From NCBI GenBank assembly GCA_024689005.1, contig JAILDU010000043.1:1-64000 (forward strand): a DNA stretch of 64,000 nucleotides, given 5' to 3'. Under the pieces are notes generated by a model that was not told the DNA's origin, made no database searches, and saw only the letters and a list, made by a program, of their open reading frames with translations. The stretch comes from Paludibacteraceae bacterium (lineage in GTDB: Bacteria; Bacteroidota; Bacteroidia; Bacteroidales; Paludibacteraceae). The number at the start of each line of letters is the position of its first letter. Positions within the stretch are counted from its first letter, which is position 1. This document shows positions 1-43,898 of the stretch, in pieces. The position numbers and the translations under genes are program-made.

Positions 1-2844
1 CTGATAGCATATCGTGATATTACTTTGGATATCGGAAAATATGATATTGCGTACGATTGGAAAGGAACAGGTAATGCTGGTCAGGGTTACCTTAAGGTTG
101 TTTATGCCAATCGCCCGACAAATAGTATTAAGTGTGTAGGAAATAGTGTGGTTCCTACATGGGTGAACTCTAAGATTTCGTCAGTCAAGTTGACGGGAAA
201 CCTCGATAGCCTAAATAACGGCGAATCTTGGCGGCATGTACAGGCTCGTATTAGTATCGAGAATCAGGGACATGCCAACAAAGAGACAACGCGTCTGTTC
301 TTTGTGTGGGTAAATACCAGTGCAAACAAGAATGATAGTCTTACCTCTATTGCTATTGACAATTTCCAACTGGGGAAGGCATCTGCTACCGACTACCCAA
401 CTAATCTTCATGTAACTACAACGCTCAATAATACAATGGTTACTTGGGAAGGCTCGGCTGATAGCTACGAGGTAATGTACCGTCCGAAGAATGCGAGCGA
501 TTTTTCTGTTGTTCCGGCAAATGGTAACACGGTGACGCTTACCGATGTGGATTATGGTGCATATGAGTTCTGGATATGTAGTGTCAATGGTGCAGACAAA
601 ACTGTTTACTCGGTTTTCCCTACGGTATACCTCTATGAGACAGATTGCTTTGACGCACTCAATATGTATAACGCTCGTTATCTGTATGGAGATTGGCCGG
701 GAGGAAATAAAGAAATCAAAGGCGAAGACAAGGTAGATTTTGGCCCCAAGGATATTCGCAGTCGCCACACCACCCACTTTGATAGAGATGAGGTCGATAC
801 AAGAACATTAAAGATGAGAGGACGTGATACTATAGAATATCTAAAAACCGTGCCCGATGGTGAGTTTGGCTCTGTGCGGTTGGGCAACTGGGCAACGGGT
901 AGCCAGTACGAATCTATTTCCTATGATTATACTGTGGAATCCAATTCTTCTGCGATAATGTTGCTTCATTATGCAATGGTGTTGGAGAACCCGGATCACA
1001 TAGCAGATGATCAGCCACGCTTCACATTGGATGTAACCACTCCGGATGGCAAATCAATAGACACCAAATGCGCTCAGGTGAATTTTCATGCACCGACTTC
1101 AACAGAACAACAGAATCCGGAGATAAAGGCATTATGGCATACTTCGGATCAAGGTTATAATTGGCAGGAATGGAAGACCATAGGAATCAATTTGGTAGAT
1201 TATATCGGAGAAACGTTGACAATCACCTTTACTTCGTATGATTGTGATCAAGGGGGTCACTTTGGCTACGCCTATTTTATGCTCAATTGTTCGCGCAATG
1301 ATGTGGATGGAATTCCTTGGGGTGAAGGTTCTTCCACACAGTCTTTTACTGTCCCCTCCGGATTTAATTACGCATGGTTCAATCGGGAAGATACCGCGTA
1401 TAAGGAAGTTATTGATAATACAGACACCAATGTTTATCCGTATATAGCAGGGGGTGGCCGCTATTTGTATGTACATGAGTCGGACACCAATACCTACCTA
1501 TGTCATGCTACATATCCTTCCAATCCGGATTGCGGATTTTGGTATGATGCCAGCGCCAAACCGCACAATCCGAAGGCAGAATTGGCATGGGAATGGACAC
1601 CGGAAAATTGTACGAACAGCTTTGTGCTTCGCAATCTTTGCCACGTTATGCTTACCAATCAGCTGACCGGCGAATTGGAGCATCGTTATGACAAGCAATT
1701 GGATGAATGCTATTTGATTTTAGAGGATGGCACCGAGCAGGCTATCGGCTATGATGAACAAGGACTATTTATACCGATGCCGGACGAGGGCGGAACGTTG
1801 CGTTACGGTATTCGCACCGGCATCTATATCAATGGTCAACTCCTTGCGGATACGGCATGGTATGATATTGAGGTTCCTGCCGTAGGTCCGTTGGAGACTC
1901 ATCTCTACGATACCATTTGCCGTGGTGAATCAATCACCTTCCCGATAGATTCCGGAACCGAGTATTCCGATAGCGGCACTTATACAGACTCGCTCAAGAG
2001 TGTGATTACCGGGTGCGATAGTACTGTGCTGATGCATCTCTTGGTTCATGAGCCTATCTATGCGGAGATATATGATACGATTTGTTTTGGTGGTAGTTAT
2101 GTGTTTAATGGACGCACACTCACTACTTCCACCCAACAAACAATGGTCCTGCATAATGCAAGTTTAGTGACCGGCTGCGATAGCATAGTGACCCTGAATC
2201 TTACGGTAGCACCTCGTCCTCGTCTGCAACTGGCCGACAAACATCTCTGTGGAGACCAACAGTTGGTAGTGCTGACGCAGCATAGTGATTACGCGGATAG
2301 CATCCGAGTTGTTGTGACCGGTGCTTTGGACACGGTTGCTTCCTTCAATCGTGAGCCGGATGCAGAAACGCGTATTCCAATCTCCAATCAAGAGGTCGGA
2401 GAACGCAAAGCGGTAGTCTATACGTACATGCCTTGGTGTGACCAACAATTTACGGATACGTTGACCTTTGACGTTAGTTTGTCCGCCAGTGTGGTAGAGG
2501 CACGTTTCAACAATGTGCTTGCCTTTCTCAATGCAGATTACAACGGAGGATTGGAGTTCAGTGCTTTCCAATGGTATGCCAACGGAGAACTGATTCCGGG
2601 CGCAACCGGTTCGTGGTATCATGAGACAACGATGGATCCCAACAAAGAGTTTATGGTGGATGTGACGATGGCGGATGGTTCGCACGTATGGACATGCCCG
2701 TTCTCTTTCGGAAGTCTGTCATGGACACAAGGAACGGAAGATGTACATACATCACCTATTTCACATAAGATTTTACGTGATGGCCGCTTGATTATTTTGA
2801 GTAACGGCCATGAGTATAATGCACAAGGACAATTATTACGATGA
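1..2844 (+). CDS. Large exported surface protein, 5'-truncated by window edge; conserved SRH/GYAYF block, GCDS repeats, RWNDVL/DYNGG-like Ig region, short T9SS-like C-terminal tail
   Basis: Frame is open from base 1 (LIAYRDITLDIGKYD...). Contains SRHTTHFDRDEVDTRT, TVPDGEFGSVRLGNW, HFGYAYFMLNC, two GCDS motifs; ends ILRDGRLIILSNGHEYNAQGQLLR. Confidence 0.85.
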   Translation: MIAYRDITLDIGKYDIAYDWKGTGNAGQGYLKVVYANRPTNSIKCVGNSVVPTWVNSKISSVKLTGNLDSLNNGESWRHVQARISIENQGHANKETTRLFFVWVNTSANKNDSLTSIAIDNFQLGKASATDYPTNLHVTTTLNNTMVTWEGSADSYEVMYRPKNASDFSVVPANGNTVTLTDVDYGAYEFWICSVNGADKTVYSVFPTVYLYETDCFDALNMYNARYLYGDWPGGNKEIKGEDKVDFGPKDIRSRHTTHFDRDEVDTRTLKMRGRDTIEYLKTVPDGEFGSVRLGNWATGSQYESISYDYTVESNSSAIMLLHYAMVLENPDHIADDQPRFTLDVTTPDGKSIDTKCAQVNFHAPTSTEQQNPEIKALWHTSDQGYNWQEWKTIGINLVDYIGETLTITFTSYDCDQGGHFGYAYFMLNCSRNDVDGIPWGEGSSTQSFTVPSGFNYAWFNREDTAYKEVIDNTDTNVYPYIAGGGRYLYVHESDTNTYLCHATYPSNPDCGFWYDASAKPHNPKAELAWEWTPENCTNSFVLRNLCHVMLTNQLTGELEHRYDKQLDECYLILEDGTEQAIGYDEQGLFIPMPDEGGTLRYGIRTGIYINGQLLADTAWYDIEVPAVGPLETHLYDTICRGESITFPIDSGTEYSDSGTYTDSLKSVITGCDSTVLMHLLVHEPIYAEIYDTICFGGSYVFNGRTLTTSTQQTMVLHNASLVTGCDSIVTLNLTVAPRPRLQLADKHLCGDQQLVVLTQHSDYADSIRVVVTGALDTVASFNREPDAETRIPISNQEVGERKAVVYTYMPWCDQQFTDTLTFDVSLSASVVEARFNNVLAFLNADYNGGLEFSAFQWYANGELIPGATGSWYHETTMDPNKEFMVDVTMADGSHVWTCPFSFGSLSWTQGTEDVHTSPISHKILRDGRLIILSNGHEYNAQGQLLR

Positions 2845-5800
2845 AACGGAAATTATTCATATTGTTATCTGTATGTGTGACGATTGCTGCCATGGCGCAA
2901 TTGCCACATAGTTATTCGTGTGATTTCGAGGATGCTGCGGAGAATGCACGATGGAATCTCAATACACCCAAGAATGAAAACTATACTTGGGTTAATACAT
3001 GGACAATAGGTAGTGGAGTCTCGTCATTGGGAGCGCAGTCGTTGTATATATCAGCCGATGGCGGTACCACTGCAGGATACAAACTATCCGATTCACGCAC
3101 AATGATAGCATGGCGTGAGTTGACATTGGAGGCAGGAACGTACGACTTGTCCTTTGACTGGATGTGTGGAGGTGATTCGACGCGCGCAGCACTTCTTGTT
3201 GCTTGGGTGCCGGAAGATAAGTTCGACGATATGTTTTGCCTATTGTCTTCCAAGTATCGTGACAAAGAATGGGTAGCAGAGAATTTGCTTAAATTTACCG
3301 ATGGAAGCGTGATGCTGAACGGAGGATCTGTGTGGACTCATGCATCGGTAGAGGGTGTTGTGTCCAACGGTCGACCACATCGTTTGGTATATTTGTTCGT
3401 TTATGATAAAACCGCACAATTGGTACAACCCGGTCCGTGTGTGGACAATATAGGCTTGGCGCGCAATAATTGTGGTAAACCGACGGATTTAACAGTGTCC
3501 ACTATGGGGCAAACCACACGATTCACATGGCAGTCTGCTGCCGAGTCGTTTAATCTTCGATACTATCGGATGGGTGAGAATGAAGCTACGGAGATTCGTG
3601 ATGTTAGAAGCAAATCATATTCAACGGTGCTTTCTCACGGAGTGTACAATGTCCAGATTCAAGTTGTTTGTCAAGGAGATACCAGCGTGTGGTATGATTT
3701 TCCGGTGGTCTTTATTTATGACGCACGTTGCGTTAGGTATCTTAATCTGACAGATGACAATTGTTTTTATTCCGAAGAGACCGCAGATAATTGGCAGATG
3801 AATGATACGTTACTGCGGGTTGGGCAAAAGAAAGACTATGGTTTCACCTCCATGTGGAGCCGCCATACGATCCATTATAATCCGGAAGAATATGATGCGC
3901 GTACCAACGGAAGTGTTGATTCTGAGGGTAATCCGGTGGCTCCGCTGAAGACTGTGCCGGATGGCGAACTGGCGTCAGTTCGTGTTGGCAGTTGGGAGAA
4001 AACTGCCCGTGTGGCACGAATCGTCTATGATTTTACGGTAGATGCCAAGGATGCAGGAGTGCTGATGCTCAAGTATGCGTTGGTGTTAGAATCGTCAGGT
4101 CACAAAGAAGAACAACGACCGCGTTTTACAATCAATATCGTAGATGCAGAAACGGGTGCAGAACTAAGCGAATGCACGACCGTAGACTTGTCTTCTAAAA
4201 CCAATGGAGACGGATGGAATCGTGTGCCGGATGGTACTGATACCGGAACACGTGATGTGTGTTGGCGTGATTGGACTACGCTTGGACTCAACCTGGCCGA
4301 TTATGACGGCAGGCATGTCAAGGTCGTACTGACCGCAATGGGATGTACAGCTGAGATACATTATGGTTATGCTTATTTCATACTGAATTGCATATCCGGC
4401 AATATAGAGGGAATCCAGTGTGGAAATACGCCGACTAACGAATTTATTGCGCCGGAAGGTTTTGATTATCGCTGGTACAAACTATCTGCACCAAGTGAGA
4501 CGCTGAGTCGCAATCGAATATATCCTGTAGATTATCGTGATACGGAAGATTACGCAGTGGACGTGATGTATAAATCCAACAAGAAGGATTGCAAATTTAC
4601 TCTCTACGCAAATGCCATACCGCGTTTCCCGATACCGGAGGCAACTTATACATTGGAACAACGTGATTGCGGTAATTATATTCGATTCCGCAACATGAGT
4701 CACATCCGTACGCGCAATTGGCTTACCGGTGAGACTATTGATACGAAGAAACGTCCTGATGCTATGGTCTGGGATTTTGGAGGTCTTATGCCCGATTCTC
4801 TGATGCGCGACTCTATTCCGTGGAATCCGGCGTTCCGCTTGCCGGATGAGGAGGCAGACTACCACTTCACATTACGCGCCATGGTGGGCCTGTGTGACAG
4901 TACGCAGGATTTCTATATCCATGTACCCCATGTCGGTAAGGATTCGGTGGTAGAGTCTGTGCAACGTTGTGTTGGTGACTTATATGAACACAACGGACGT
5001 TATTATTCCGGCGATACCGTTATAGTGGATGAATCCCACAACCTCGCCGGTTGCGATAGTACGCACGTGATTAACCTTCGTTTTGTAGATGCAATACGTG
5101 ATACGGTGAACGCAGTAATACCTGAGGGTGAGAATTATTTGTTTGGCGAGGAGCAACTGACGATAGGAGGAGAATATACCTCCACCTTTATGAGTGCATC
5201 CGGTTGCGATAGTATAGTGACGCTTTATCTGCGTGTAGTTGTTCCGCTAGAGGTAGAGCTGACGGGCTTGGAGAATCCGTGCCCCGAAGATGCTTCTTTC
5301 CTTATTTATACATGTGCGCGCAAGGGAGTATATAATTATTATGCACTTCGTTTCAGCGATGAGGCATTTGCAGAAGGATGGTTGCCGCAGTCGGATTCTA
5401 TCTACCGTCTATGTGATACTGTAGAAGTGTCATTGCCGGCGAATGTCAAGCCGGGATATTATCCGTTCACCATACGTTTTGATAGCAAGGAGAATGGTTC
5501 ATACGAACTGACAGGCGAGGTGATGGTGCACTACTCGGCTACGCTGATCCAGCAACGTTGGGACGACGTATTGGGTATCCTGAATGCAGATTACAACGGA
5601 GGCTATGATTTTGTCTCTTTCCAATGGTTGCACAACGGCAAGGAAATAGAGGGTGCCACCGGATCGTATTTATACAAAGCCGACAAACTGCAAGCCGGCG
5701 ATGAGTATGCCGTACTGCTGACAACGTCTGCCGGCGGTCGTGCTATTCCAACCTGTGCATATATAGTGCCCGCTACTCAACAATCTGCTCCCGCTGTATC

Positions 5801-5885
5801 AACGCAAAAACAATTGCAGAACGGCAGATTGTATATCATAGTGGAGGGCCGTACCTACAATGCCCAAGGCTATTGGGTAAAATAA
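2841..5885 (+). CDS. Large exported surface protein, tandem paralog of the preceding gene
   Basis: Signal peptide MKRKLFILLSVCVTIAAMAQ; same SRHTIHYNPEEYDART / TVPDGELASVRVGSW / HYGYAYFILNC block; GCDS repeats; tail LQNGRLYIIVEGRTYNAQGYWVK; 4-bp ATGA overlap with upstream stop. Confidence 0.88.
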   Translation: MKRKLFILLSVCVTIAAMAQLPHSYSCDFEDAAENARWNLNTPKNENYTWVNTWTIGSGVSSLGAQSLYISADGGTTAGYKLSDSRTMIAWRELTLEAGTYDLSFDWMCGGDSTRAALLVAWVPEDKFDDMFCLLSSKYRDKEWVAENLLKFTDGSVMLNGGSVWTHASVEGVVSNGRPHRLVYLFVYDKTAQLVQPGPCVDNIGLARNNCGKPTDLTVSTMGQTTRFTWQSAAESFNLRYYRMGENEATEIRDVRSKSYSTVLSHGVYNVQIQVVCQGDTSVWYDFPVVFIYDARCVRYLNLTDDNCFYSEETADNWQMNDTLLRVGQKKDYGFTSMWSRHTIHYNPEEYDARTNGSVDSEGNPVAPLKTVPDGELASVRVGSWEKTARVARIVYDFTVDAKDAGVLMLKYALVLESSGHKEEQRPRFTINIVDAETGAELSECTTVDLSSKTNGDGWNRVPDGTDTGTRDVCWRDWTTLGLNLADYDGRHVKVVLTAMGCTAEIHYGYAYFILNCISGNIEGIQCGNTPTNEFIAPEGFDYRWYKLSAPSETLSRNRIYPVDYRDTEDYAVDVMYKSNKKDCKFTLYANAIPRFPIPEATYTLEQRDCGNYIRFRNMSHIRTRNWLTGETIDTKKRPDAMVWDFGGLMPDSLMRDSIPWNPAFRLPDEEADYHFTLRAMVGLCDSTQDFYIHVPHVGKDSVVESVQRCVGDLYEHNGRYYSGDTVIVDESHNLAGCDSTHVINLRFVDAIRDTVNAVIPEGENYLFGEEQLTIGGEYTSTFMSASGCDSIVTLYLRVVVPLEVELTGLENPCPEDASFLIYTCARKGVYNYYALRFSDEAFAEGWLPQSDSIYRLCDTVEVSLPANVKPGYYPFTIRFDSKENGSYELTGEVMVHYSATLIQQRWDDVLGILNADYNGGYDFVSFQWLHNGKEIEGATGSYLYKADKLQAGDEYAVLLTTSAGGRAIPTCAYIVPATQQSAPAVSTQKQLQNGRLYIIVEGRTYNAQGYWVK

Positions 5886-14446: not shown

Positions 14447-14472
14447 GATAGCCCGATTGGGTTCGGGCTATC
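14447..14472 (+). terminator. Hairpin between giant adhesin and C10 protease genes
   Basis: gatagcccga-ttgggt-tcgggctatc, perfect 10-bp stem; no clear T-tract. Confidence 0.55.
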
Positions 14473-14504
14473 TGTCTATATTATTCAAACAAAAGAAAGC
14501 ACAT

Positions 14505-16883
14505 ATGAGGAGAGTTATTGTTATATTATTGGTTATGTCGGTGAATGCAGTACTATGGTCTGCCACGCGTTCGCCACAACAAGTTATGTCCATAGCCGGT
14601 AGTTTCATGCATGGCCGTGCTTCTGCCAACGGAAAACATAGCATTCCCTCAGCATCCAGTCCTCAAATAGTGTCCCAGAGCGCATCCTATTATGCTATTA
14701 ATATCGATGGTAGTTATGTGTTGGTTTCTGCGGATGACCGCTTGCCCGAGGTCTTGGGTTATAGCGATAGTGGAACTTTCGATACCGACAATATGTCGCC
14801 GGCAACGCGTTATTGGTTGGCATGCTATGATGAGGAACTGGCTTCAATCAATAATCAGCAATTGACAATGAGCAGTGCACGTCACGCGGTTCCGGCTATT
14901 GAGCCCTTGATGACAAGCAAGTGGAACCAATCTTCTCCATACAACGATCTCGCACCTATGTATAACGACAACGGAGGTCAATGTGTGACAGGATGTGTAG
15001 CGACAGCCATGGCCCAAGTGATGTATTTCTATCGCTATCCTCAAAAAGGCATTGGCAGTCACTCGTACCTGTGGATATGTACCGAACCGGCAGGAAAATC
15101 GGGCACCCTATCTGCCAATTTCGGCAATACAACTTACGATTGGGCGAATATGTTGGATTCATACCGATCGGGGTATACCGATGTGCAGTCCAATGCTGTG
15201 GCTACACTGATGTACCATTGCGGTGTGTCCATTGATATGGGGTATGGTCAATCCAGTGGCGCTTATACAGAGCAAGTGCCCGTAGCTCTAAAAAATTACT
15301 TTGGTTACGATGCCAATTATCAGCGTATTCGTAAGATTATGTACCCTGCCGATAGCCTCAATGCCATCATTGCGGCAGAGTTGTCTGCCGATAGACCCGT
15401 TATTGTTAGCGGACATAACGATGAGGGCGGTCACGCTTTTGTCTGCGACGGTTGCGATACGCGCGGCTATTTCCATATCAATTGGGGATGGGGAGGCAGC
15501 AACGATGGTTACTATCTGCTTACGGCTCTCAATCCGGGTCGTTCGCAAGGAATTGGAGGAACAACCAAAGGTTACAACAAAGGAACATCCTTTTTCGTAG
15601 GACTTCAACCGGCTCAAACCAACTCGCCTAAGGCAATCCCACAGATGGCAACCACGCGTTTCTCGGTGAGCAGCCAGTCCTTCAGTCGTGGCGCATCGTT
15701 TACTGTTTCCATCGCCCAACTTCAGAACTACGGTTTGACCGATTATTCCGGTAGTTATGGCGTGGCCCTCTACGATGAGGATGAGACAACACTGGTCCGA
15801 GTGCTCAAGCAGGTGGACAACTATTCGCTTAATGCCGGTTTCTATCGTACCTCATCAGCCGATATCACCACATCTATCCCGACTTCGACCTCTACCCTTC
15901 CGAATGGTACTTACCATCTTTGTGTGGTCTATAGGGACGCTAACTATGGTTGGATGCGTATGATGTGTACAGAAGATGATTATTACAAGACGGTAGAGCT
16001 CTCGGGCAATATGGTCACATTCTATGCCAACGATGCCGCGCCAGAACTAACACTGACTTTACCTTTGGTATTCCCAGAAGGGACAAATCCCGACTCTGTT
16101 CCCAAAACAGGAATACCCGTTTCTTTCTCAATCAGGAATACCGGTGGTACCTTCCGCGGAGATATATCTGCGCGTGTTTACAAAGGTTCTTTTGCTAAAG
16201 GTCAGTATGAGATAATGGATAGCGTTGTCATTCGCCGCAATCAAAGTCTCAGTTCTGCTTTGCAGCAGAAGTTTGATGCAGCTTTGGAATTAAATCAACA
16301 ATACAAGATGAAGTTGTGTTGGCGTGCAGGAGAAGGAGATAACTGGCATGATTTTGATGGTACATTGCCTTTCAAACTGTATGATCCCGATTACCACTTG
16401 TCGCTGACCGATACTATCCGCTTTGACCGCAACGATAGTGTACCACGTAGCAATGCTAATCTTAATTATTCGATTCGTAATACCGGTGCTCCCTTCGATG
16501 GCGAATTGCAGGTCTCGTTCTATCAGACCTATTTCTCTCGCGGCAAGAGTGAGATACGGGAAGTATATATCGGTACCAATGATACGTTAACTGGAGTGTT
16601 CTCCGGACCTCTGGAGCAGGAGGCAGGAATCTACGACGTAGTTCTCCGCTATCGAGACCAGGATGGCGATTGGCAGGATTTTATTGATATTAATGATAAC
16701 AATATAGGTGCTATCGTTGCGACGGTTTATGATGATACGGTGTCAACCGAAATTAATAATCGTCAACTATCAACTGTCAATAGTCAACTACTAATGCACC
16801 TCGGCGCGTATGACCTTTATGTAGTCATCACCCGCGAGGGGAATAAACAGAAACACAAGAAAGTATTTATACCCATTCAATGA
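14505..16883 (+). CDS. C10 family (streptopain/SpeB-like) cysteine protease with C-terminal Ig-like region
   Basis: Cys motif GGQCVTGCVATAMAQVMYFYRYP, His/Trp motif GGHAFVCDGCDTRGYFHINWGWGGSNDGYY; propeptide-like N-terminus. ORF track starts at 14457; ATG at 14505 gives signal peptide MRRVIVILLVMSVNAVLWSA. Confidence 0.88.
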   Translation: MRRVIVILLVMSVNAVLWSATRSPQQVMSIAGSFMHGRASANGKHSIPSASSPQIVSQSASYYAINIDGSYVLVSADDRLPEVLGYSDSGTFDTDNMSPATRYWLACYDEELASINNQQLTMSSARHAVPAIEPLMTSKWNQSSPYNDLAPMYNDNGGQCVTGCVATAMAQVMYFYRYPQKGIGSHSYLWICTEPAGKSGTLSANFGNTTYDWANMLDSYRSGYTDVQSNAVATLMYHCGVSIDMGYGQSSGAYTEQVPVALKNYFGYDANYQRIRKIMYPADSLNAIIAAELSADRPVIVSGHNDEGGHAFVCDGCDTRGYFHINWGWGGSNDGYYLLTALNPGRSQGIGGTTKGYNKGTSFFVGLQPAQTNSPKAIPQMATTRFSVSSQSFSRGASFTVSIAQLQNYGLTDYSGSYGVALYDEDETTLVRVLKQVDNYSLNAGFYRTSSADITTSIPTSTSTLPNGTYHLCVVYRDANYGWMRMMCTEDDYYKTVELSGNMVTFYANDAAPELTLTLPLVFPEGTNPDSVPKTGIPVSFSIRNTGGTFRGDISARVYKGSFAKGQYEIMDSVVIRRNQSLSSALQQKFDAALELNQQYKMKLCWRAGEGDNWHDFDGTLPFKLYDPDYHLSLTDTIRFDRNDSVPRSNANLNYSIRNTGAPFDGELQVSFYQTYFSRGKSEIREVYIGTNDTLTGVFSGPLEQEAGIYDVVLRYRDQDGDWQDFIDINDNNIGAIVATVYDDTVSTEINNRQLSTVNSQLLMHLGAYDLYVVITREGNKQKHKKVFIPIQ

Positions 16884-18481
16884 AACATTATAAAAAATAT
16901 TTATTAGTTGGTTTTTTATGTTTGTCAGCATCTTTACATGCTGATGTCAAGCGTGAAGGTATTCATTTTCTGACAACCGAGGCTTCTTTGGGCTATTCGG
17001 CTTTGCTTAATCAGTCAACGTTAGGAACTTCTTCCGGTTTGGCCGGAGCCAAACTGCAAGTAGGCTATGAGTTCAACTATCGTAAGTTGCTGGTCCATGC
17101 TGGTATCGAGTTTGCTTCTATCAATGACCGAGCGCGAGTACAACCCTTCGTGTTGGAAACACCATACACTATCGGTTTGTCTGCGGGGCAGCAGATGATC
17201 GAGCATTTTGAGTTCCAGTCGTTCTCCGAGACCCAGTATATAGGTCAAATCAATATTCCTCTGCAAGTCGGTGCCTGGTTTGATCGCCGATACTATTTCT
17301 TGGCAGGTGTCCGCTTGGGTTTGCCGGTACTCCATAGCGCATCTACTAAGGCGCAAGTACGAACCTACCTGACCGATCCCACTTTGATCGGTGGTCTCGG
17401 TGAGCACGAAGAGGTTCCTACACATGATGCATATACGTCCGACCTGCGTTATTCCCATGCTTGGGCAACATCTCCTATTAACGCACAAGTATCTGCCGAG
17501 GTTGGTACAGTACTCAACTCTTTTTTCGAGAAACCGCAGAAAGGTAGAAATTCATCTGCTGCGCGTGGCAAAAATGCGAAGAAACCTATCCTCTACCGGG
17601 TGGCTCTGTTCGCAGACTACGGTGTGATGTCCTGTTGCAATAATTCAGCTCCTGCTGTTGCGTTAGCTTCAGTCTCCCAACCGCGCGAGATTACTATCAA
17701 TGATTATTACCAAGCATCACAAACATCCGTCAATTCATTATTGGTGGGGGCTAAGTTTGCTGTGTTGTTTCAACTCAATATGCCTAAACCTGCCAAGCCT
17801 CTGCCTTCTTATTTTGATATCTATATCACCGATGCAGTGACAGCCAAATCCATACCTGCAAGCCTTAATATTCGCGATTTGGCTAAAAATAAATCTGTAG
17901 TCAAGGAGGCCAAGAACGGTCACGTGCGTCATCGTATTAAGGATGGTGAATACTCAATTACTGCATCCAACGAGCAATATATTGCACAATCGCTCAGTGC
18001 ATCTATGGCCGGAGAAGGTGTCATAGATACCATACGTTTTGCATTGCAACCTAAACCCAAACCGGTGGTCATAGATACCCCTATTGTTTCCATACCTATC
18101 AAGGTGGGTACCAAGGTCGTTTTGCATAATCTGTTCTTTGCAACCAACAGGACACAAATCTTACCTGAGTCCGAGGCTGCACTGGATGAGTTGTCCACGT
18201 TCATGAGCAGCAATGAGGGATTGGTTATTCGTATCACCGGCCACACGGATAATGTCGGTTCTGATCAAGCCAACCAAATTCTTTCAGAAGGTCGTGCCAA
18301 AGCAGTACGCGAGGAACTTATCAAACGCGGTATAGCTGCTGAGCGCATTGAGGCAGAAGGCAAAGGTGAGAGCGAACCGGTTGACACGAATGATACAGAA
18401 GAAGGCCGTGCGCGCAACCGTCGTGTAGAGTTCACTATCATCTCCACCGGCGGAGCGGATATTGAGCAAATCGCTGAATAA
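16880..18481 (+). CDS. Outer-membrane barrel protein with one carboxypeptidase-regulatory-like domain and C-terminal OmpA domain
   Basis: NLFFATNRTQILPESEAALDELSTFM...GHTDNVGSDQANQILSEGRAKAVREELIKRG...GKGESEPVDTNDTEEGRARNRRVEF (OmpA C-terminal peptidoglycan-binding motif). Confidence 0.88.
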   Translation: MKHYKKYLLVGFLCLSASLHADVKREGIHFLTTEASLGYSALLNQSTLGTSSGLAGAKLQVGYEFNYRKLLVHAGIEFASINDRARVQPFVLETPYTIGLSAGQQMIEHFEFQSFSETQYIGQINIPLQVGAWFDRRYYFLAGVRLGLPVLHSASTKAQVRTYLTDPTLIGGLGEHEEVPTHDAYTSDLRYSHAWATSPINAQVSAEVGTVLNSFFEKPQKGRNSSAARGKNAKKPILYRVALFADYGVMSCCNNSAPAVALASVSQPREITINDYYQASQTSVNSLLVGAKFAVLFQLNMPKPAKPLPSYFDIYITDAVTAKSIPASLNIRDLAKNKSVVKEAKNGHVRHRIKDGEYSITASNEQYIAQSLSASMAGEGVIDTIRFALQPKPKPVVIDTPIVSIPIKVGTKVVLHNLFFATNRTQILPESEAALDELSTFMSSNEGLVIRITGHTDNVGSDQANQILSEGRAKAVREELIKRGIAAERIEAEGKGESEPVDTNDTEEGRARNRRVEFTIISTGGADIEQIAE

Positions 18482-34167: not shown

Positions 34168-35124
34168 GTGAGAAGGTACGTTCTATTAATATGCATTATT
34201 GGGCTTAGTGTATCTGTCAGTGCCCATACCAGTCTCTCTCCGGAGACCCATCATTTTGTGTCCCTTCATGGAGATCTGGGCTTTTCTATGCTCCTTCATT
34301 CGATCGACAATCAGAGTCCTGCAAAAGGACTGAATCCGAATATCGGTGTCGATTATCGTCTCTTTCACAACAATTTCTTACTCTCCGTAGGTGTGGAGGG
34401 TATGTATGGATTGTATGCCAACTCTCTGGAAGGAATAGAGGAAGTCATTCCGATGATGGATACCGAGGGTGACCTCTTCAATATGCATGTGTCTGTAAGC
34501 GCAGCGCGCGATCATGCGCACATGATTAACGCTAATGTACCATTATTGATAGGAGGTGAGTGGGGATGCTTCTATTTCCTTGTTGGACCCAAACTCTCTC
34601 TCAATCTCTATGGTGTCACTTCTTCCTCTGCGCAAGTTACTACGTATGGCGAATACGACCGTTATTACGACGATTTCTACGATATGCTCAACCACCAGTT
34701 TGAGACCAATCGCCCTATGACCAGTGGTACGCTTCCGCTCAAGTGGAATATGAACGTTATCGCTCATCTCGAGGTCGGAGGACGTCTCGATGACTTCCCT
34801 AAGAGTTCGGGTTATTACGCTAATCGAAACAAGGTGCGCGTTTATCTTGCCGGATATGTGGATTTCGGTGTCCTCAATCTGAAAACTGCCGGCAATGGAG
34901 AACCATTGTTCCAATATCGCGAAACCGATCAGGGCTTGCAATTCTATATCCAACCGCTATTGGTAAGCAATCGTTCGGATAATGCCGTGATTCGCAATCT
35001 CAGTCTGGGCGCCAAACTGACAGTCGCATTCCCGATGGCTGAGCATGGCAAGTCCTACAAGTACGACTCGCGTCGTGTCAAACTCAATTATCGTAAACGT
35101 GGCGGAACCCAAGCGCTGTATTAA
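34168..35124 (+). CDS. Outer-membrane beta-barrel protein (GTG start), related to the barrel part of the two OmpA proteins here
   Basis: Signal peptide (M)RRYVLLICIIGLSVSVSA; GDLGFSMLLHS...NIGVDYRLFHNNFLLSVGVEG resembles GYSALLNQ...QVGYEFNYRKLLVHAGIEF. Confidence 0.7.
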   Translation: MRRYVLLICIIGLSVSVSAHTSLSPETHHFVSLHGDLGFSMLLHSIDNQSPAKGLNPNIGVDYRLFHNNFLLSVGVEGMYGLYANSLEGIEEVIPMMDTEGDLFNMHVSVSAARDHAHMINANVPLLIGGEWGCFYFLVGPKLSLNLYGVTSSSAQVTTYGEYDRYYDDFYDMLNHQFETNRPMTSGTLPLKWNMNVIAHLEVGGRLDDFPKSSGYYANRNKVRVYLAGYVDFGVLNLKTAGNGEPLFQYRETDQGLQFYIQPLLVSNRSDNAVIRNLSLGAKLTVAFPMAEHGKSYKYDSRRVKLNYRKRGGTQALY

Positions 35125-35172: not shown

Positions 35173-37383
35173 ATGAAACGATTATTCCATATATTGCTTA
35201 TTTCTTTGGCTTTTGCCTTTGTTGCACCGGCTTTGTCCGTAGTTGATAGCCGCATCGCAGCAGTCTATGCTGTGGATGCTAAGGCTAAAGCTAAAGCACA
35301 ACGTGAGAAAGAGAAGGCTAAGGCAGCTAAAGAACGCGAGAAGGCTAAAGCGGCTGCTCAAAAACAAAGAGAGAAAGCAGCCGCCCAGAAGAAGAAAGAA
35401 CAGGCTAAGTCTGCTGCTCAGAAGCAAAAGGCTAAGGCTAAAGCACAGCAAGCTAAAGCAGCCGCTAAACCGGCTCCTAAACCTGCTGCTTCTAAGCCCG
35501 CGCCCAAGGCCATTGCTGCCATGACTCCGGAGGAGGAGAAGACGCAGTATATGGAGCAGAAAGCCACTGTGGATAAAGCCAACGCAAGAGCCGAGGCATA
35601 CAATAATCGTGATATCACCCACCGCCTTGGCTTTTGGGGGCAAGTAGGCTATAGCAACCTCTTTACTTCCGGCATCGCTTTCGAGGCAGCTACTCCTAAC
35701 CCTGTCGGTTTCGAGAACAAAGACAAAGGCTTCGTTGGTGGTGGCCTTGGTCTTGGCTATCAGATGCGCTATCGGCAGATGATCCTCACTACGGGTCTCG
35801 AATTCAATACGTACAATTCCGTCATGGCGTTCTCTAATCAGCCGGATGGTACTATGCTTCTCCAATACGGAATGAGCCCGTATGCATCTACTATGACTTA
35901 TCACTATGCGTTCGATTCGATGCAAGACAAATTGATTGGTGGCTTTGCTCAAATACCTGTCTTGTGCGGTATGGAGTTGAGTAATTCCCCGCTCTTCTGG
36001 CAGGTTGGTCTGAAAATCGGTATGGGAGTGATGGGCCAATCGACCATTAGTGGCAATATGACTACTTCCATCGAAGACAAAGAGTTGATCGAAGGTCTGC
36101 AAAATATGTACAACCATTTGTTGGTTTCTGATCAGGCTGTTCAACGCCCCGCTACATCGGTTAAGTTCGGCCTCAATCTGGCTGCCAGTGCTGAGATTGG
36201 CGTTAATCTCGATCAGTGGATCAATGCTTCGCCTCGCCTGCGTGCATCGCTTTTTGCGGATTATGGTATCCTCAATTCGCTTAGCTACAAGGCTGCTGAC
36301 GGCGCGCAAGATATACCTATGCAGATGACGGTGGCTGCTAATCCGTTGGATTATCCTACCAATTCTACACTCGCTACCACCTCTGCGGCTAATGCCCAAG
36401 TCCATCCGTTCTTGGTAGGTGCCAAACTCTCCGTATGGTTCGATCTGCCGCGCAAGCAGAAACCTGTTATGGATTATCCGGCTATGCCGGCTTCGCGTTT
36501 GGGAGTTTATTTGTATGATCAGGAGAATGAGTCGGCTTTGGGTGGCGTGTCTGTCGAAATCATCGATGTTGCTACTGGCAAGTCTTTGCAGAAGAATACC
36601 AACCGCCAAGGTCTGCTCCAGAATCGTTTTGCTCCGGGTCAGTATCGTGTCTTGGCTACCAAGAACGGCTATCTGCCGTCTGATACGATTCTTCAGACTG
36701 TCGAGGAGTTCTCGTTCGACACGCTGCGCTTGCCTATGCATCGTATTGTCGCACCTGTGGTTCATACGTTGTGCCTCAATATCTTTGATGCAGATACTCG
36801 CGCGCCTATCGAGGCTGCTGTGCGCATCGTTTCTATAACCGATCCTGCTGTCGGCTATACGGCTCAGTCTTCGGATGACGGCTTCATCGAGACCCCGCTT
36901 ACTGCAGGAGATTATATCGCCCACCTGAGCGGAACAGGCTATCTGTCCAAGGATGATACGCTCCACTTCGTGCTGGATACTCTGGATTTGTTTATGCAGC
37001 ATATCCAGGAGGGTGTCAAGGTGAAGATTGAGAACCTCTTCTTTGCAACCAACAAGACTTATATCCTCCCGCAGTCCGAGCAGGCTATGTCAGATCTCGC
37101 TACTTTCCTCTTGGAGAATCCGACTGTCTCTATCCATATCGTAGGCCACACCGATGCTGTCGGTTCGGATGAGGCCAACCAGATCCTGTCTGAGGGACGT
37201 GCTAATGCCGTACGCGATGACCTTATCAAGCGTGGCGTGGCTGCAGAGCGTCTCAGCGCTGAGGGTAAGGGCGAGCAGGAGCCGGTGGCTGACAACGATA
37301 CCGAAGAAGGACGCCAACTCAACCGTCGTGTAGAGTTCGTCATCACCGGAACGGATGGTAAAGATATTGAGCAAGTTTATTAA
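35173..37383 (+). CDS. Outer-membrane barrel protein with Lys/Ala-rich N-terminal segment, two carboxypeptidase-regulatory-like domains and C-terminal OmpA domain
   Basis: KAKAKAQREKEKAKAAKEREK...PAPKPAASKPAPK; GLGYQMRYRQMILTTGLEF barrel; NLFFATNKTYILPQSEQAMSDLATFL...GHTDAVGSDEANQILSEGRANAVRDDLIKRG. Confidence 0.88.
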   Translation: MKRLFHILLISLAFAFVAPALSVVDSRIAAVYAVDAKAKAKAQREKEKAKAAKEREKAKAAAQKQREKAAAQKKKEQAKSAAQKQKAKAKAQQAKAAAKPAPKPAASKPAPKAIAAMTPEEEKTQYMEQKATVDKANARAEAYNNRDITHRLGFWGQVGYSNLFTSGIAFEAATPNPVGFENKDKGFVGGGLGLGYQMRYRQMILTTGLEFNTYNSVMAFSNQPDGTMLLQYGMSPYASTMTYHYAFDSMQDKLIGGFAQIPVLCGMELSNSPLFWQVGLKIGMGVMGQSTISGNMTTSIEDKELIEGLQNMYNHLLVSDQAVQRPATSVKFGLNLAASAEIGVNLDQWINASPRLRASLFADYGILNSLSYKAADGAQDIPMQMTVAANPLDYPTNSTLATTSAANAQVHPFLVGAKLSVWFDLPRKQKPVMDYPAMPASRLGVYLYDQENESALGGVSVEIIDVATGKSLQKNTNRQGLLQNRFAPGQYRVLATKNGYLPSDTILQTVEEFSFDTLRLPMHRIVAPVVHTLCLNIFDADTRAPIEAAVRIVSITDPAVGYTAQSSDDGFIETPLTAGDYIAHLSGTGYLSKDDTLHFVLDTLDLFMQHIQEGVKVKIENLFFATNKTYILPQSEQAMSDLATFLLENPTVSIHIVGHTDAVGSDEANQILSEGRANAVRDDLIKRGVAAERLSAEGKGEQEPVADNDTEEGRQLNRRVEFVITGTDGKDIEQVY

Positions 37384-37417
37384 TAGTGTACCCTTACACA
37401 AGATACATCACACACAA

Positions 37418-40400
37418 ATGCGTAAGTTCTTCTTATATATCAGTTTGATGGTTTCTGCGCTCATTTCCGCGCAGACCCTTCCTTACGAATGTAGTTTTGA
37501 GGAATCCGAAGATTTGTCTAACTGGCATTTTAATGCTGGCTCTGCCTCTAATAAAGACAAGTGGATAGTAGGTACTGCTACGCACAGTACGGGCAAGCGC
37601 TCTCTGTATATATCTTCCGATGGTGTCAGTCCTATATATGGAGCCAAACCGAATGTGTCGGTTTCTTATCTGAGCTTTGATTTTCCTACAGATCCTAACC
37701 CCCAAAACTATGATGTTAGTTTCGATTGGGTGGGAATGGGCGATGTGGACAAGTCGCATCTCCGTGTTATAATTTGCCCCGAATCTGCTCTTTCATCAGG
37801 AACGTTAAGTCTGGACAATATTGCATCCGACAACTCTGGAGTAATAAGTAGTGATAATATCGAACCGAAATGTATGGATTTGGGATCTCACGGAAGGAAA
37901 GCTTGTGGTAGTGCTACATGGATAAATGTATCAATCCCGGTAACGGTAAGATCCAACTCTCCTACTTATGCTATAGTTTTTATATGGGAGAATAATAATA
38001 CCGACACCACTGTGCGCCATTCTTCTATAGCTATTGACAATGTGCAGATCGCTTCGAACAAATTAAGAAAACCGACAAACTTGGAAGTTATACCGGCCTG
38101 CGACTCAACACTGGCCCTTACCTGGGAGGCCGCAAGTTTACCACAAGGAGCAAGATTTGAGGTGGGATACCGTCTCGTCGGTTTGTCTAATTGGATAACA
38201 TTTGAGCCGGACCAAAGCGACGGACTCCAAAAAATAGGAACGTACAAATACTCTTATACGATTAGTGATGTTTTGGAAGGAGCATATGATGTGCGTGTGC
38301 GTGTTGAGAATGGTAACCTAACTACTAATTATACGTATAGTAATTCAGTGTTCCTTTATTGCCCGGAGAATCATTGTGTCAATTATGCGCGTCTTGATGC
38401 TTCTAATGTTAAATGTGCATATGGCCATCATCCGGACTACGAGCACAACCATAGCCATCGTGTTAATGAAGAGGAAGGAATAGTTGATTTCGGACCGGCC
38501 GCAATGGAGAGTCGTCATACCGTTCATGTGGACCCAACCGAGACCGACCCGCGTACAGGTGGCGAATTGTACACAGTCCCCAAGGGAGCTTTAGCCTCTG
38601 TTCGCTTGGGTAACTGGGGTACAGGAGCCGAAGCAGAATCTATCACGTACGAAATAGATGTGGATTCTGCCAGTTACTTGCTCGTTCAGTATGCGGTTGT
38701 GCTTCAGGAACCTGGACATCCTGGAGAACCGGAGTTCAAACTCGAAGTGTTGGATGAGAATGGTCAACTCATAAACCATAGTATGTGTGGTCAGGCTGAT
38801 TTTACCTATACGCAAGCGTATAATGATCCTCACTGGAAAACCTTTACTCATGAAGGCAGTAGTATTGTATGGAAGAATTGGACTACCATAGGAGTCGATT
38901 TGTCTGATTATTATAAGAATAGTATCCAAGTCCGCTTCACTACTATGGATTGTACCGAAACTGCTCACTATGGCTATGCGTATTTTACAGTAGATTGTGC
39001 TAGTGCGACTATCAAGACCAATAACTGCGGTAAAGATCCGTATCTTTCATGCTACGCGCCGAAGGGATTCAAATACGAGTGGACCGACGAGCAAGATTCG
39101 GTTGTCGGACGCGAGCGCGAACTGGAGGTGCCGGCTACTCCACAGAGTTATACCTGCAAGCTGACCTTCCTTGAGAATGATACATGTTATTTCACTATTA
39201 GCACTTACTATGCTCCGCGTTTCCCAGTTCCGGACTATAAAGTTGATACAGTATTTGAGGATTGTACAAGCCTACTTAAATTTACTAATAAGTCGCATGT
39301 GATGTACATGATTGACGGTGTACCTGAGCATAAAGATAGCGAACTGTGTGAAGCTTGTCATTGGCAGTTTCGTAGTATTACAAAAAATACTGTCATTAAG
39401 GAAGACGATAGTAAGAACCCCACATGTCCATGCCCTTTGCAGGGAGACTCCATTGAGATAACCTTGACGGCTTATGTGGGAGCAGATAACCATTGTGATA
39501 GTGTTCGCGTGGATACTATCGTTGTGCCGAATATACTGACTCCGGACTCCATCCGTCGTGTGGATACGTGTTCTATTAATCTTCCCGTTTCATTTGATGG
39601 CAAATTATACTACGAAGATACAATCGCTGTGCATCCTCACAAGAACATCTTCGGTTGCGACTCCTTACTTTGGCTCTATTTGAACGTGTATCCTGATGCT
39701 CCGGATCGTTATATTCACGACTCTATATGTTCTGACTCTGTCGCTACAATTGCAGGGTTTACCTTCAACGAACCTATTGTCAATCATAGGATCAATCTTG
39801 AGACCGTTCATGGGTGCGACAGTATAATATTTTATACACTGACAGTCAATGAGCGTTTGCAGGCAACGGTTGACCGGATGCCTTATGCATGTGCCGACGA
39901 CGAGCAACTCTATGTCTCTTTCGATATCGCAGCCGGAGTATATGACAGTCTCGAGATTAGGTTCAATACACCCGAACTGCGTGACACAATGATATATGAC
40001 CCGAGTGTGGTATCGGTCTCAATCCCTTACCCGTCGGATATTGCGCCGGGGCATTATCAGGCCACTATACGTTTCCATCAGTTCTGTTGTGGTATCTACG
40101 AGGAAACACGCGATTTCGATATCCGCTTTCGCAGTTCCATCGTGGAGCAGAAGTGGAACGATGTGCTCACGTTGTTGAGTCCGAAAGCCAATGGTGGCTT
40201 CGAGTTTACTGCCTTTCAGTGGTACAAAGATGACGCGCCGCTTTTGGGAGAGACCAAGTCTTATCTCTACCAACCCCTGGATATGGACGCTACCTACTAT
40301 GTAGAGCTTACCCAGCCGGACGGCTCTGTGGTTGCTACTTGTCCGATTCAGCCTGTTTATCATGAGCAGCAGACGGCGTTCCCGACTATCGTATCGGCTG

Positions 40401-40594
40401 GCCAGCATCTGCCGATGTATATGGAGCATTCCGCTACCATTTGGTACTATACCATCTCTGGTCAACTCTATACCACCTTCTCCCTTCCGCAGGGTTATAC
40501 CTCGCTTTCGATACCGGGTCAAAGTGGATCATATATCGTTAAATCCGTCAATTCAGAGGGGGAAACCCAGGCTCAAGTCATGATTGTTCAATAA
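37418..40594 (+). CDS. Large exported surface protein of the SRH/GYAYF type, T9SS-like C-terminal domain
   Basis: ATG at 37418 gives signal peptide MRKFFLYISLMVSALISAQ (ORF track starts upstream at 37355); SRHTVHVDPTETDPRTGG, ASVRLGNW, HYGYAYFTVDC; GCDS repeats; C-term IWYYTISGQLYTTFSLPQGYTSLSIPGQSGSYIVKSVNSEGETQAQVMIVQ. Confidence 0.87.
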   Translation: MRKFFLYISLMVSALISAQTLPYECSFEESEDLSNWHFNAGSASNKDKWIVGTATHSTGKRSLYISSDGVSPIYGAKPNVSVSYLSFDFPTDPNPQNYDVSFDWVGMGDVDKSHLRVIICPESALSSGTLSLDNIASDNSGVISSDNIEPKCMDLGSHGRKACGSATWINVSIPVTVRSNSPTYAIVFIWENNNTDTTVRHSSIAIDNVQIASNKLRKPTNLEVIPACDSTLALTWEAASLPQGARFEVGYRLVGLSNWITFEPDQSDGLQKIGTYKYSYTISDVLEGAYDVRVRVENGNLTTNYTYSNSVFLYCPENHCVNYARLDASNVKCAYGHHPDYEHNHSHRVNEEEGIVDFGPAAMESRHTVHVDPTETDPRTGGELYTVPKGALASVRLGNWGTGAEAESITYEIDVDSASYLLVQYAVVLQEPGHPGEPEFKLEVLDENGQLINHSMCGQADFTYTQAYNDPHWKTFTHEGSSIVWKNWTTIGVDLSDYYKNSIQVRFTTMDCTETAHYGYAYFTVDCASATIKTNNCGKDPYLSCYAPKGFKYEWTDEQDSVVGRERELEVPATPQSYTCKLTFLENDTCYFTISTYYAPRFPVPDYKVDTVFEDCTSLLKFTNKSHVMYMIDGVPEHKDSELCEACHWQFRSITKNTVIKEDDSKNPTCPCPLQGDSIEITLTAYVGADNHCDSVRVDTIVVPNILTPDSIRRVDTCSINLPVSFDGKLYYEDTIAVHPHKNIFGCDSLLWLYLNVYPDAPDRYIHDSICSDSVATIAGFTFNEPIVNHRINLETVHGCDSIIFYTLTVNERLQATVDRMPYACADDEQLYVSFDIAAGVYDSLEIRFNTPELRDTMIYDPSVVSVSIPYPSDIAPGHYQATIRFHQFCCGIYEETRDFDIRFRSSIVEQKWNDVLTLLSPKANGGFEFTAFQWYKDDAPLLGETKSYLYQPLDMDATYYVELTQPDGSVVATCPIQPVYHEQQTAFPTIVSAGQHLPMYMEHSATIWYYTISGQLYTTFSLPQGYTSLSIPGQSGSYIVKSVNSEGETQAQVMIVQ

Positions 40595-40613: not shown

Positions 40614-43600
40614 ATGAAGAATCGCTTATATTTGTTTATCCTATTAGTCATGGTGAGCTTCTCGCTCCCCGCAAAAGCTGTCAAACAGTACACGTGTGAT
40701 TTCGAATCTCCTGAAGATCGTGCTCGTTGGACATTGAATCCTGTAGACGAGAATATGACCTTGCCCAATAAATGGTATTTCGGAAATTTGGGAAATAACG
40801 ACAGAGACGGGCAGTATGGACTCTACATATCTAACGACGGAGGAGAATCCGCCCGTTACACCAACAAGGGGTGTTGGGTCTTTGCTTATGACACGGTGTC
40901 TCTCGATCATCTTACCGCCGATTCGGCCTATTATACCATTACCTTCGACTATGTCGCTATGGGTAATGTCGCAAGTAATTTCGACGGACTATACTTGTTG
41001 TGGATCCCTATGACGGACAATAATGGCGATTCTATTGATATACAATCTGCTATTCTGCAGCACGAAGAGAAACTAGTAAAATACGATGACTATGTCCGAT
41101 TGCTTCAACCGACCTCCGGCAGTACGTATCTCAACGGAACTTCCACTTGGCGTCAGTGTGCCCACCGATTACCCGGTAAATCTTGCGACGGCAAACCGCA
41201 TTATCTGGCTTTTGTATGGGCTAATGGCAGAACGATCATGCAGCAACCTGGAGCTAAGTTAGACAATATATCTATCACCAACAATATCATTTGTAAAGCG
41301 CCCGACTCCTTGTATGTATCCACGAGCGGAACAACTGCTAATGTATCCTGGGTTGGAGAGGCGCAGAGTTACGAACTCTCTGTCTATTCCTATGAGACAC
41401 AAACGTGGCTCGGACCGATGATCGTTGAGGGAACACAAACAACGGTTTCCGGTATTCCTGTCGGCCAGGCGGACTTTATTGTTCGCTCGGTGTGTGAGGA
41501 TAATATCTATAGCCTAAAGACTATCCTCTCTAAACTCATGTACTATCCGGACCAATTATGTGTGGATTACCTCAACTTAGATAATGCCATCTGCTATGTT
41601 AATAGTGAACCACCTGCCAGTACATTAGATTTTGATGCTTTCCGGATAGTACGGCCTGTTGATAATGGACCATCTGATAGATTCAGCCGCCATGTGGTCC
41701 ATTTCGATCGAGAGGAAACTGATCCCCGCACGGGAGGTATGGCTAAGACTATTCCGGATGGAGAACTGGCTTCTGTGCGGTTAGGCAACTGGGAGGTTGG
41801 TAATGAGGCAGAACGTATCGATTTTTCTTTTGAAGTTGATGCGATTGAGCATCCGATACTCTTGCTCAAGTATTTGCCTATCTTGGAGGCCCCTGACCAT
41901 GTGCGTAATCACAACCCACGATTCAAACTTGAACTCTTTCATAACGGGAAATCAATAGGAGAATGTGGCATGGCCAATTTTAGTGCAGATGATGTGCTCA
42001 ACAAAGAGAAAACAGCACTTTCTGATAGTGCTAAGGCGCAAGGCTGGCATTTGACGCCGGCATCCGTGGCATTCTCTGGCCCTGGTCAACAAGACCGAGC
42101 TGATGTGGTGTGGAAAGAGTGGACTACTGTCGGTATAGATCTTAGCGCCTATGACGGAGAAACCATTAAGGCGCGTCTGACTACTCATGATTGCCAAGAA
42201 ACAGGACATAGCGGTTATGCATATTTCACGTTAGGATGTTCTGACGCCAATTTCAAAGGCATGATGTGTGGCGCAGTCAATCCGGAATTTGAGGCTCCCG
42301 AGGGATTCTCTTATCGTTGGATGTATGCGTCAAGCGAACAATATCGAGACGATGCTGATGGTGGTTCCGTTCCCGAGCAATATGTGTTAGGACGTGATCG
42401 GCATTTCGTGGCCGGGAACAAGGATGATAGTGTATATGTAGTGGATTGTATGTTCTCTATGGATACTACATGCTATTTCTCGCTCTATACTACTACGCTG
42501 GCTACTGCTCCTATTCCCGTGATGAATGAGCCTAAGATCCAGCCTGATTGTCGTGAGGACAAGTATATCGTTTCTTTCGATGCTTCTCCTTCGTGGGTGA
42601 GAGAGATTGATCATGTTAAGAACGATACAATCCCCAGTCGCCTCTATCATATTGAGCACTACGAGTGGTTTGTCGAGGGTATTGCTGGTGGCTGGTCCGA
42701 CCGGGTGACTCCTTCTTTCACGTTCCCTCCTACAGGAGGCGACTACAAGGTGAGTCTGCGTGTCTCTGGAGGAAACTGTGATTCCACGCTCTATTATAAT
42801 CTTCATTTGGATACGTTGGGCTTAGTCCGAGATACAACGGTAATAACCCTCTGTGATGATGTGCGCAAGAACGGCTATGTATGGGGCGAAAAGTCAGATA
42901 CTATATACCATTCATATGGCTTGGATTCAGTCAATATTCATAATGAGATTAATGGTTGCGATAGTGTGCGTTACCTCGTCCTTAGAGAACCGCATCGTCT
43001 ACTCATAGATACGTTCGTAGTACCGGAATCGCTGCCTTTCAACTATCGTGGGCGCACTTATAATGCTAACGCTGTAGATACGATTCCCATCTCCGATTCC
43101 AATTGTGATACTACTTGGGTCCTCAATTTCGAGGTTTACGAGTCATTGCAAGCCTCTATGCAAGATAGTATCTTTGTGTGCGCCGGAGAGCCGTTTGCAT
43201 CGCTCGGTTATGAAGTGACGAGAGGACGTAGCCTGCGCTATTCATATGCGTTTACCGACGCCTCGCTCACGTCCATCGATCCTATATCTGATGAGCAAAA
43301 ACAAGGACATTATGAGGTGAATATTCCTCTGTCTGCAACGCTGACGCCGAATATCTATTCAGGAACGCTTTTGTTAGAGGACCTGAAGCCGAGTTGCAAT
43401 GTGACTCTGCCTTTCAAGCTGATAGTGCAATACGCGTCCTCGGTTATAACCCAACGTTGGAACGATGTGCTCGCTATCCGCAATAGTGATTATAACGGCG
43501 GCTTTGAGTTCGATTCCGTTCAGTGGTACCTGGGCAATACACCTATCTTGGGTGCTACGGGATTCAATTATTATGCCGGCGATGGTATCCATCTGAACTT

Positions 43601-43898
43601 TGGCGAATCATATAGCGCACTGCTTACGCGACGGGATGGTGTCAAACTCTTTACATGTCCGTTCATACCGCAACCGGTGGCAGCTGATATCAACGATCTG
43701 CCTACTTTGGTGTCGCCTTCTGCTCCTATGCATATCCCGGGCAAGGGTACTGCCTATTGGTATGATATTCTCGGACGCCAATATCATGCGCAGCCATACA
43801 ACGATTCGGATATAGCATCACCTGCAGCCAAGGGCTATTATCTCCTCGTCTTGCAGACACCCGCTGAACGTTCGATTCATCCTATTATGGTTAGATGA
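40614..43898 (+). CDS. Large exported surface protein of the SRH/GYAYF type, tandem paralog, T9SS-like C-terminal domain
   Basis: Signal peptide MKNRLYLFILLVMVSFSLPAKA; SRHVVHFDREETDPRTGG, TIPDGELASVRLGNW, HSGYAYFTLGC; C-term AYWYDILGRQYHAQPYNDSDIASPAAKGYYLLVLQTPAERSIHPIMVR. Confidence 0.87.
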   Translation: MKNRLYLFILLVMVSFSLPAKAVKQYTCDFESPEDRARWTLNPVDENMTLPNKWYFGNLGNNDRDGQYGLYISNDGGESARYTNKGCWVFAYDTVSLDHLTADSAYYTITFDYVAMGNVASNFDGLYLLWIPMTDNNGDSIDIQSAILQHEEKLVKYDDYVRLLQPTSGSTYLNGTSTWRQCAHRLPGKSCDGKPHYLAFVWANGRTIMQQPGAKLDNISITNNIICKAPDSLYVSTSGTTANVSWVGEAQSYELSVYSYETQTWLGPMIVEGTQTTVSGIPVGQADFIVRSVCEDNIYSLKTILSKLMYYPDQLCVDYLNLDNAICYVNSEPPASTLDFDAFRIVRPVDNGPSDRFSRHVVHFDREETDPRTGGMAKTIPDGELASVRLGNWEVGNEAERIDFSFEVDAIEHPILLLKYLPILEAPDHVRNHNPRFKLELFHNGKSIGECGMANFSADDVLNKEKTALSDSAKAQGWHLTPASVAFSGPGQQDRADVVWKEWTTVGIDLSAYDGETIKARLTTHDCQETGHSGYAYFTLGCSDANFKGMMCGAVNPEFEAPEGFSYRWMYASSEQYRDDADGGSVPEQYVLGRDRHFVAGNKDDSVYVVDCMFSMDTTCYFSLYTTTLATAPIPVMNEPKIQPDCREDKYIVSFDASPSWVREIDHVKNDTIPSRLYHIEHYEWFVEGIAGGWSDRVTPSFTFPPTGGDYKVSLRVSGGNCDSTLYYNLHLDTLGLVRDTTVITLCDDVRKNGYVWGEKSDTIYHSYGLDSVNIHNEINGCDSVRYLVLREPHRLLIDTFVVPESLPFNYRGRTYNANAVDTIPISDSNCDTTWVLNFEVYESLQASMQDSIFVCAGEPFASLGYEVTRGRSLRYSYAFTDASLTSIDPISDEQKQGHYEVNIPLSATLTPNIYSGTLLLEDLKPSCNVTLPFKLIVQYASSVITQRWNDVLAIRNSDYNGGFEFDSVQWYLGNTPILGATGFNYYAGDGIHLNFGESYSALLTRRDGVKLFTCPFIPQPVAADINDLPTLVSPSAPMHIPGKGTAYWYDILGRQYHAQPYNDSDIASPAAKGYYLLVLQTPAERSIHPIMVR

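Follow-up and report, generated by a model that had tools for sequence, protein, structure and literature searches.

Cargo proteins of the type IX secretion system (T9SS) that carry type B sorting signals are adhesins, either known or predicted, and have PorP-like proteins as their anchors (PMC12618676, PMC9143113). In F. johnsoniae 9 of 12 type B adhesins are encoded next to PorP/SprF (PMC12618676), and anchoring of type B cargo by PorP has been described (PMC9143113). On phage-encoded T9SS cargo we found one report, of cryophage genes with type A sorting domains (PMC7468147). Here we analyze a window of 64,000 nucleotides (C3:1-64000) from a Paludibacteraceae bacterium, which encodes four large proteins sharing a conserved block. 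That the block is a real domain, absent from the libraries we searched and associated with surface proteins of the T9SS, we hold with high confidence; that it forms the ligand-binding head of a paired surface adhesin is our favored reading of its role, to which we assign a probability of roughly 0.6.

Results

The block in the four window proteins

The block had been described in an earlier note on this DNA as a segment recurring in four products, and it lies where that note had placed it in all four. The genes form two tandem pairs (g1-g2 and pC-pD), laid out as follows, with the block measured from the first to the last conserved Cys:

1..2844, forward strand: g1 gene, encoding MAM-like, FN3, block, Ig, PKD-like, two GCDS repeats, two further β-domains and a C-terminal tail
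646..1290, forward strand: block in g1 (Cys216 to Cys430)
1318..1580 (ends approximate), forward strand: Ig-like domain of g1, containing the APxGFxYxW motif (1354-1377)
2841..5885, forward strand: g2 gene, tandem partner of g1
3729..4391, forward strand: block in g2 (Cys297 to Cys517)
37355..40594, forward strand: pC gene, with a weak T9SS type A tail
38375..38998, forward strand: block in pC (Cys341 to Cys548)
40614..43898, forward strand: pD gene, tandem partner of pC
41559..42239, forward strand: block in pD (Cys316 to Cys542)

The g1 gene is cut by the contig start, so that the N-terminus of its product is missing. Alignment of the four blocks gives about 50 invariant columns over about 260 residues (pairwise identity 33-40%), and a profile built from them scores 390-438 bits against the genome of origin, far above chance. 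The four proteins are also homologous over their full length (27-30% identity), and the block is therefore the best-conserved part of a paralogous family, not a module shared by unrelated proteins. Elsewhere in the same genome (G000) C47:11913-12305 and C71:1-540 carry, respectively, the N-terminal and the C-terminal half of another block, which may be one gene broken up in assembly.

The proteins follow a common order of signal peptide, MAM-like jelly roll, FN3, block, Ig-like domain, PKD-like domain, two small repeats ending in GCDS, two β-domains and tail, where the domain names were assigned from sequence and strand pattern. An AlphaFold2 model of the full-length chain has a mean pLDDT of 89.7, with the block at about 90. 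The consensus motifs previously listed for the block fall within it except for the last, APxGFxYxW, which belongs to the Ig-like domain that follows: in a model of the isolated block confidence is low beyond about residue 226, and an alignment of the Ig region by itself aligns with the end of the block profile (hhalign 98%). The Ig-like domain always follows the block, and because APxGFxYxW is as strictly conserved as the block itself, the two domains travel together.

Catalogue searches and predicted fold

The suggestion that the domain might be undescribed is borne out by the searches. None of 105 members has a credible match among 24,736 Pfam and 18,950 NCBIfam models, the best stray E-values being 0.003-0.1 for one or two members each, and the significant match over the whole block to an annotated family that would have spoken against a new domain was sought in these two libraries and not found. 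The block profile finds no match among PDB sequences, two blocks searched against PHROGs give none, and neither the motif nor a named domain was found in the literature.

Modeled alone with its 105 relatives (pLDDT 87), the block has at least a dozen strands and no long helices, and is predicted to be a single all-β jelly-roll domain of about 210-225 residues. Foldseek matches are mainly CBM61, CBM16, CBM27, CBM11, legume lectins and MAM domains, together with CBM-bearing glycoside hydrolases, at E-values of 2e-5 to 9e-4. Since the TM-scores normalized to the query reach only 0.24-0.33, these model-based neighbors support a β-sandwich and little more. Searches with the full-length model return mainly generic multi-domain β-proteins, led by the neck of the Aureispira grappling-hook protein, while comparison of the block with viral models returns tail fibers and CBM-like domains (TM about 0.3); neither adds to its identity.

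The block could instead be a divergent MAM or choice-of-anchor J domain for which no separate family is needed. Strand order and terminal cysteines are similar by eye, the structures 5l73, 8yt7 and 8a28 are among the Foldseek matches (E 2e-4 to 9e-4, TM below 0.4), and one member matches InhA-like_MAM at E=0.03. However, MAM (PF00629) is matched by 0 of 105 members at E<=0.1, and choice-of-anchor J (NF038128) likewise by none of the 105, whereas other proteins of the window match the latter at 1e-30 to 1e-47; nor does the block resemble, in profile comparison, the MAM-like domain that these proteins also contain. We therefore consider this reading quite unlikely. Profile comparison equally finds no similarity between the block and the adjacent FN3 and anchor-J-like modules, in agreement with the distinction drawn in the earlier note. 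The idea that the block arose as a copy of the adjacent MAM-like domain is unsupported by the same kind of comparison.

Conserved residues

Counted over 134 non-redundant bacterial and phage copies, 22 positions are more than 93% conserved (g1 numbering: C216, R255, H256, D266, S291, R293, G295, Y324, A325, V327, H333, P339, C357, W391, G403, C415, H420, G422, Y423, A424, Y425 and C430). Within these an almost fixed core consists of four Cys (C216, C357, C415, C430), three His (H256, H333, H420), D266, R293, W391 and two Tyr (Y423, Y425). The block is probably held by two disulfides, for which C216-C430 and C357-C415 would be our guess at the pairing, going by position. It is also the most conserved domain of its proteins (45% all-against-all versus 19-39% for the others); judged from sequence, such strong conservation would suit a site that binds a conserved ligand or partner, and argues for this rather than for a variable host target.

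The near-invariance of three His, one Asp, one Arg and two Tyr over 134 diverse copies would also be expected if the block were enzymatic, as in a hydrolase or lyase built on a β-sandwich scaffold, with the fixed His, Asp, Arg and Tyr as catalytic residues. Against this, the block has no similarity to any enzyme family in Pfam, NCBIfam or PDB sequences, and although several Foldseek matches are whole glycoside hydrolases, most others are free-standing binding modules and lectins, which suggests that the enzymes are matched through their accessory β-sandwich parts. A catalytic role thus appears very unlikely, and a binding site remains our preferred explanation of the fixed residues.

Distribution and link to type IX secretion

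Across 84,980 species genomes a scan recovered 407 related loci, and the best 80 of the 407 are almost all from Paludibacteraceae and other uncultured Bacteroidales, many of them from rumen or gut. The block is present in 33 of 61 genomes of the window genome's family and in 22 of 396 genomes of a phylum sample, all 22 in the same class. In the distant relatives L008-L017 the four Cys and the three His are retained. Where the retrieved DNA extends to the gene end, most of these relatives terminate in a CHU_C type B sorting domain.

The genome of origin encodes SprA (2630 bits) and PorP (200 bits) and has nine Por_Secre_tail matches. A hydrophobic helix at the N-terminus of P0002 (residues 2-18), with similar segments in relatives, was taken by eye as a Sec signal peptide. 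At the other end, the TIGR04183 (T9SS type A) tail is recognized in 43 of 72 full-length relatives; in the window pC alone scores, below the cut-off (TIGR04183, E=0.0047), and the other three proteins are without a scoring T9SS signal. The last 40 residues of many members, P0001 and P0002 included, form a tail of the type NGRLYIIVxGRxYNAQGxxVK, lacking a recognizable T9SS domain; this tail may represent a truncated sorting signal or a variant of one. In 6 of 11 distant relatives with type B tails a PorP/SprF gene directly follows the block gene on the same strand, and SprA is present in all 21 distant block-bearing genomes. Its presence in 59 of 61 genomes of the window's family is weak evidence that does not discriminate, because SprA is nearly universal there.

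Tandem pairs and clades

A tree of 105 blocks resolves clades X (34), Y (40) and Z (15) besides others, the clades having been named after the tree was seen and Y having moderate support (80). Of the tandem pairs, 26 have both members in the tree, and each of these consists of a Y block and an X or Z block (12 YX, 5 XY and 9 ZY); they come from related genomes that are not independent of each other. Some lineages show the reverse order with unchanged composition; the pair members are therefore old paralogues that have stayed together, which suggests that they act jointly.

This strict pairing of Y with X or Z speaks for the reading of the block as a structural or assembly domain that docks the pair partners to each other, or to a barrel, rather than a ligand-binding head, as do a conservation unusually strong for an adhesin tip and the constant coupling of the block to the following Ig-like domain. 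Yet distant relatives occur singly, with CHU_C tails, and in phages the block sits on a short separate protein (see below), so that we regard a docking function as rather unlikely and retain the ligand-binding head as the preferred role.

Barrel neighbors and other genes of the window

Among 128 block genes, 80 have a block neighbor and 40 a barrel or barrel-OmpA neighbor, while a good part of the remaining ones stand at the ends of contigs or of fetched stretches. The window contains three such barrel genes:

16880..18481, forward strand: second barrel-OmpA protein of the same cluster
34168..35124, forward strand: 318-residue outer-membrane β-barrel-like protein, whose homologues adjoin block genes in related genomes
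35173..37383, forward strand: barrel, carboxypeptidase-regulatory-like and OmpA protein, directly upstream of pC, with a C-terminal part matching PorE

By hhalign (100%) the two barrel families are relatives of one another, and compared with PorP the window barrels give a probability below 1%. As the one match to TIGR03519 across the genome of origin also lies elsewhere, the possibility that the window barrels are diverged PorP/SprF is unsupported. The barrel-OmpA protein may be a dedicated anchor.

Three very large proteins (1,620-3,285 residues) are encoded at 5941-14436, 18736-28593 and 29032-33894. Profiles identify repeated choice-of-anchor J and FN3 modules in the first and third, and the second seems alike from its sequence. 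A C10 (streptopain-type) cysteine peptidase with a Spi inhibitor-like propeptide is encoded at 14457-16883, within the surface-protein cluster, by a gene overlapping the barrel-OmpA gene by 4 bases. Downstream of pD lies a DUF3987 gene (44592-45830, reverse strand), a 93% identical copy of which stands beside barrel and g1 genes in L033, where g1 is only 67% identical to that of the window; the DUF3987 gene may be mobile.

Copies in large phages

Annotated phage and plasmid records searched for the window block contain none. A scan of IMG/VR gave 35 contigs with the domain, including near-duplicates and amounting by eye to about 8 independent cases. Three of the 35, possibly host DNA, encode proteins of 886-888 residues whose CHU_C-like tail is complete. 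On the remaining contigs the block proteins have 379-468 residues and a signal peptide, and end after the last PKD or Ig domain. Terminase was found in 8 of 28 records checked, and two phages examined further (322 and 128 kb) also encode portal, prohead protease and major head protein; the block-bearing contigs with these genes are therefore real phages.

A separate secreted CHU_C-domain protein is encoded within 2 kb in 19 of the 35 contigs, and a separate PKD_6 protein in 15. Within one genome the block and PKD_6 proteins share a tail type (ISHN/ISHD, IYTN/IYTD or SDQN/SDN). Adjacent secreted trios of block, PKD_6 and CHU_C proteins are seen in large phages (L169, L187:9834-11680, L189:8576-10852 and L190:8039-10593), and the trio looks like a split T9SS cargo. 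It is not universal, since a phage with the VSVFTN tail shows no CHU_C or PKD_6 gene by profile within a 16 kb region. The phage CHU_C protein also has matches in two genomes of uncultured phages, each about 640 kb in size (LR745206.1:27427-27963 and LR756502.1:519094-519387), and T9SS-type signals may thus occur in very large phages too.

Discussion

We propose that the window proteins would be exported by the T9SS to the cell surface, where the block, situated behind the signal peptide, the N-terminal MAM-like domain and FN3, would bind a ligand, putatively a glycan or a protein, through a binding or metal site formed by the almost fixed three His, Asp, Arg, Trp and two Tyr. Partners in a pair would work jointly, and the neighboring barrel-OmpA protein would hold them in the outer membrane, by analogy with the anchoring of type B cargo by PorP/SprF-PorE. 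Strict pairing and recurrent barrel-OmpA neighbors suggest that rumen and gut Paludibacteraceae have a two-part surface structure with an anchoring protein of its own, different from PorP/SprF. A domain of many Bacteroidota surface proteins and of some large phages had no model in the libraries searched, and the block profile would annotate hundreds of proteins whose block part now has no name.

For the phages we offer a tentative and somewhat doubtful extension, namely that large Bacteroidota phages have taken over the head of this modular surface adhesin in split form and display it via the host T9SS. The block would be on one secreted protein, the PKD-like domain on a second and the T9SS type B signal on a third, and the shared short tails could let the block and PKD-like proteins assemble non-covalently, in a donor-strand-like fashion, onto the protein exported by the host T9SS. 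An adhesin made by the phage would in this way reach the surface of infected cells through their own secretion system, and the split version makes such viral display of adhesins on infected cells testable.

The closest described systems each share a part of this arrangement. Like the T9SS type B adhesins (SprB-SprF and PG1035-PorP-PorE), the distant block proteins end in CHU_C tails and are encoded next to PorP/SprF, whereas the window family has mostly type A tails and adjoins barrel or barrel-OmpA proteins lacking detectable similarity to PorP. Positions 430-599 of PorE (NF052230) match the carboxypeptidase-regulatory-like and OmpA region of the 35173-37383 protein, but the latter has a barrel-like N-terminus where PorE has TPR and β-propeller domains (PMC9143113). 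While CBM61, CBM16, CBM27 and CBM11 are among the best Foldseek neighbors of the block, query TM-scores are below 0.35, identity is about 8-14% and a sequence match is absent, so that the block would be CBM-like only by its fold model. MAM (PF00629) and choice-of-anchor J (NF038128) domains, both present in neighboring proteins of the block gene cluster, are likewise extracellular β-sandwiches of multi-domain surface proteins and of a similar fold class, but the block has its own set of invariant residues. Finally, the cryophage with T9SS cargo (PMC7468147) resembles the block phages in encoding proteins with T9SS sorting domains, of type A in that case, whereas in the block phages one secreted protein has the block and another the type B CHU_C domain.
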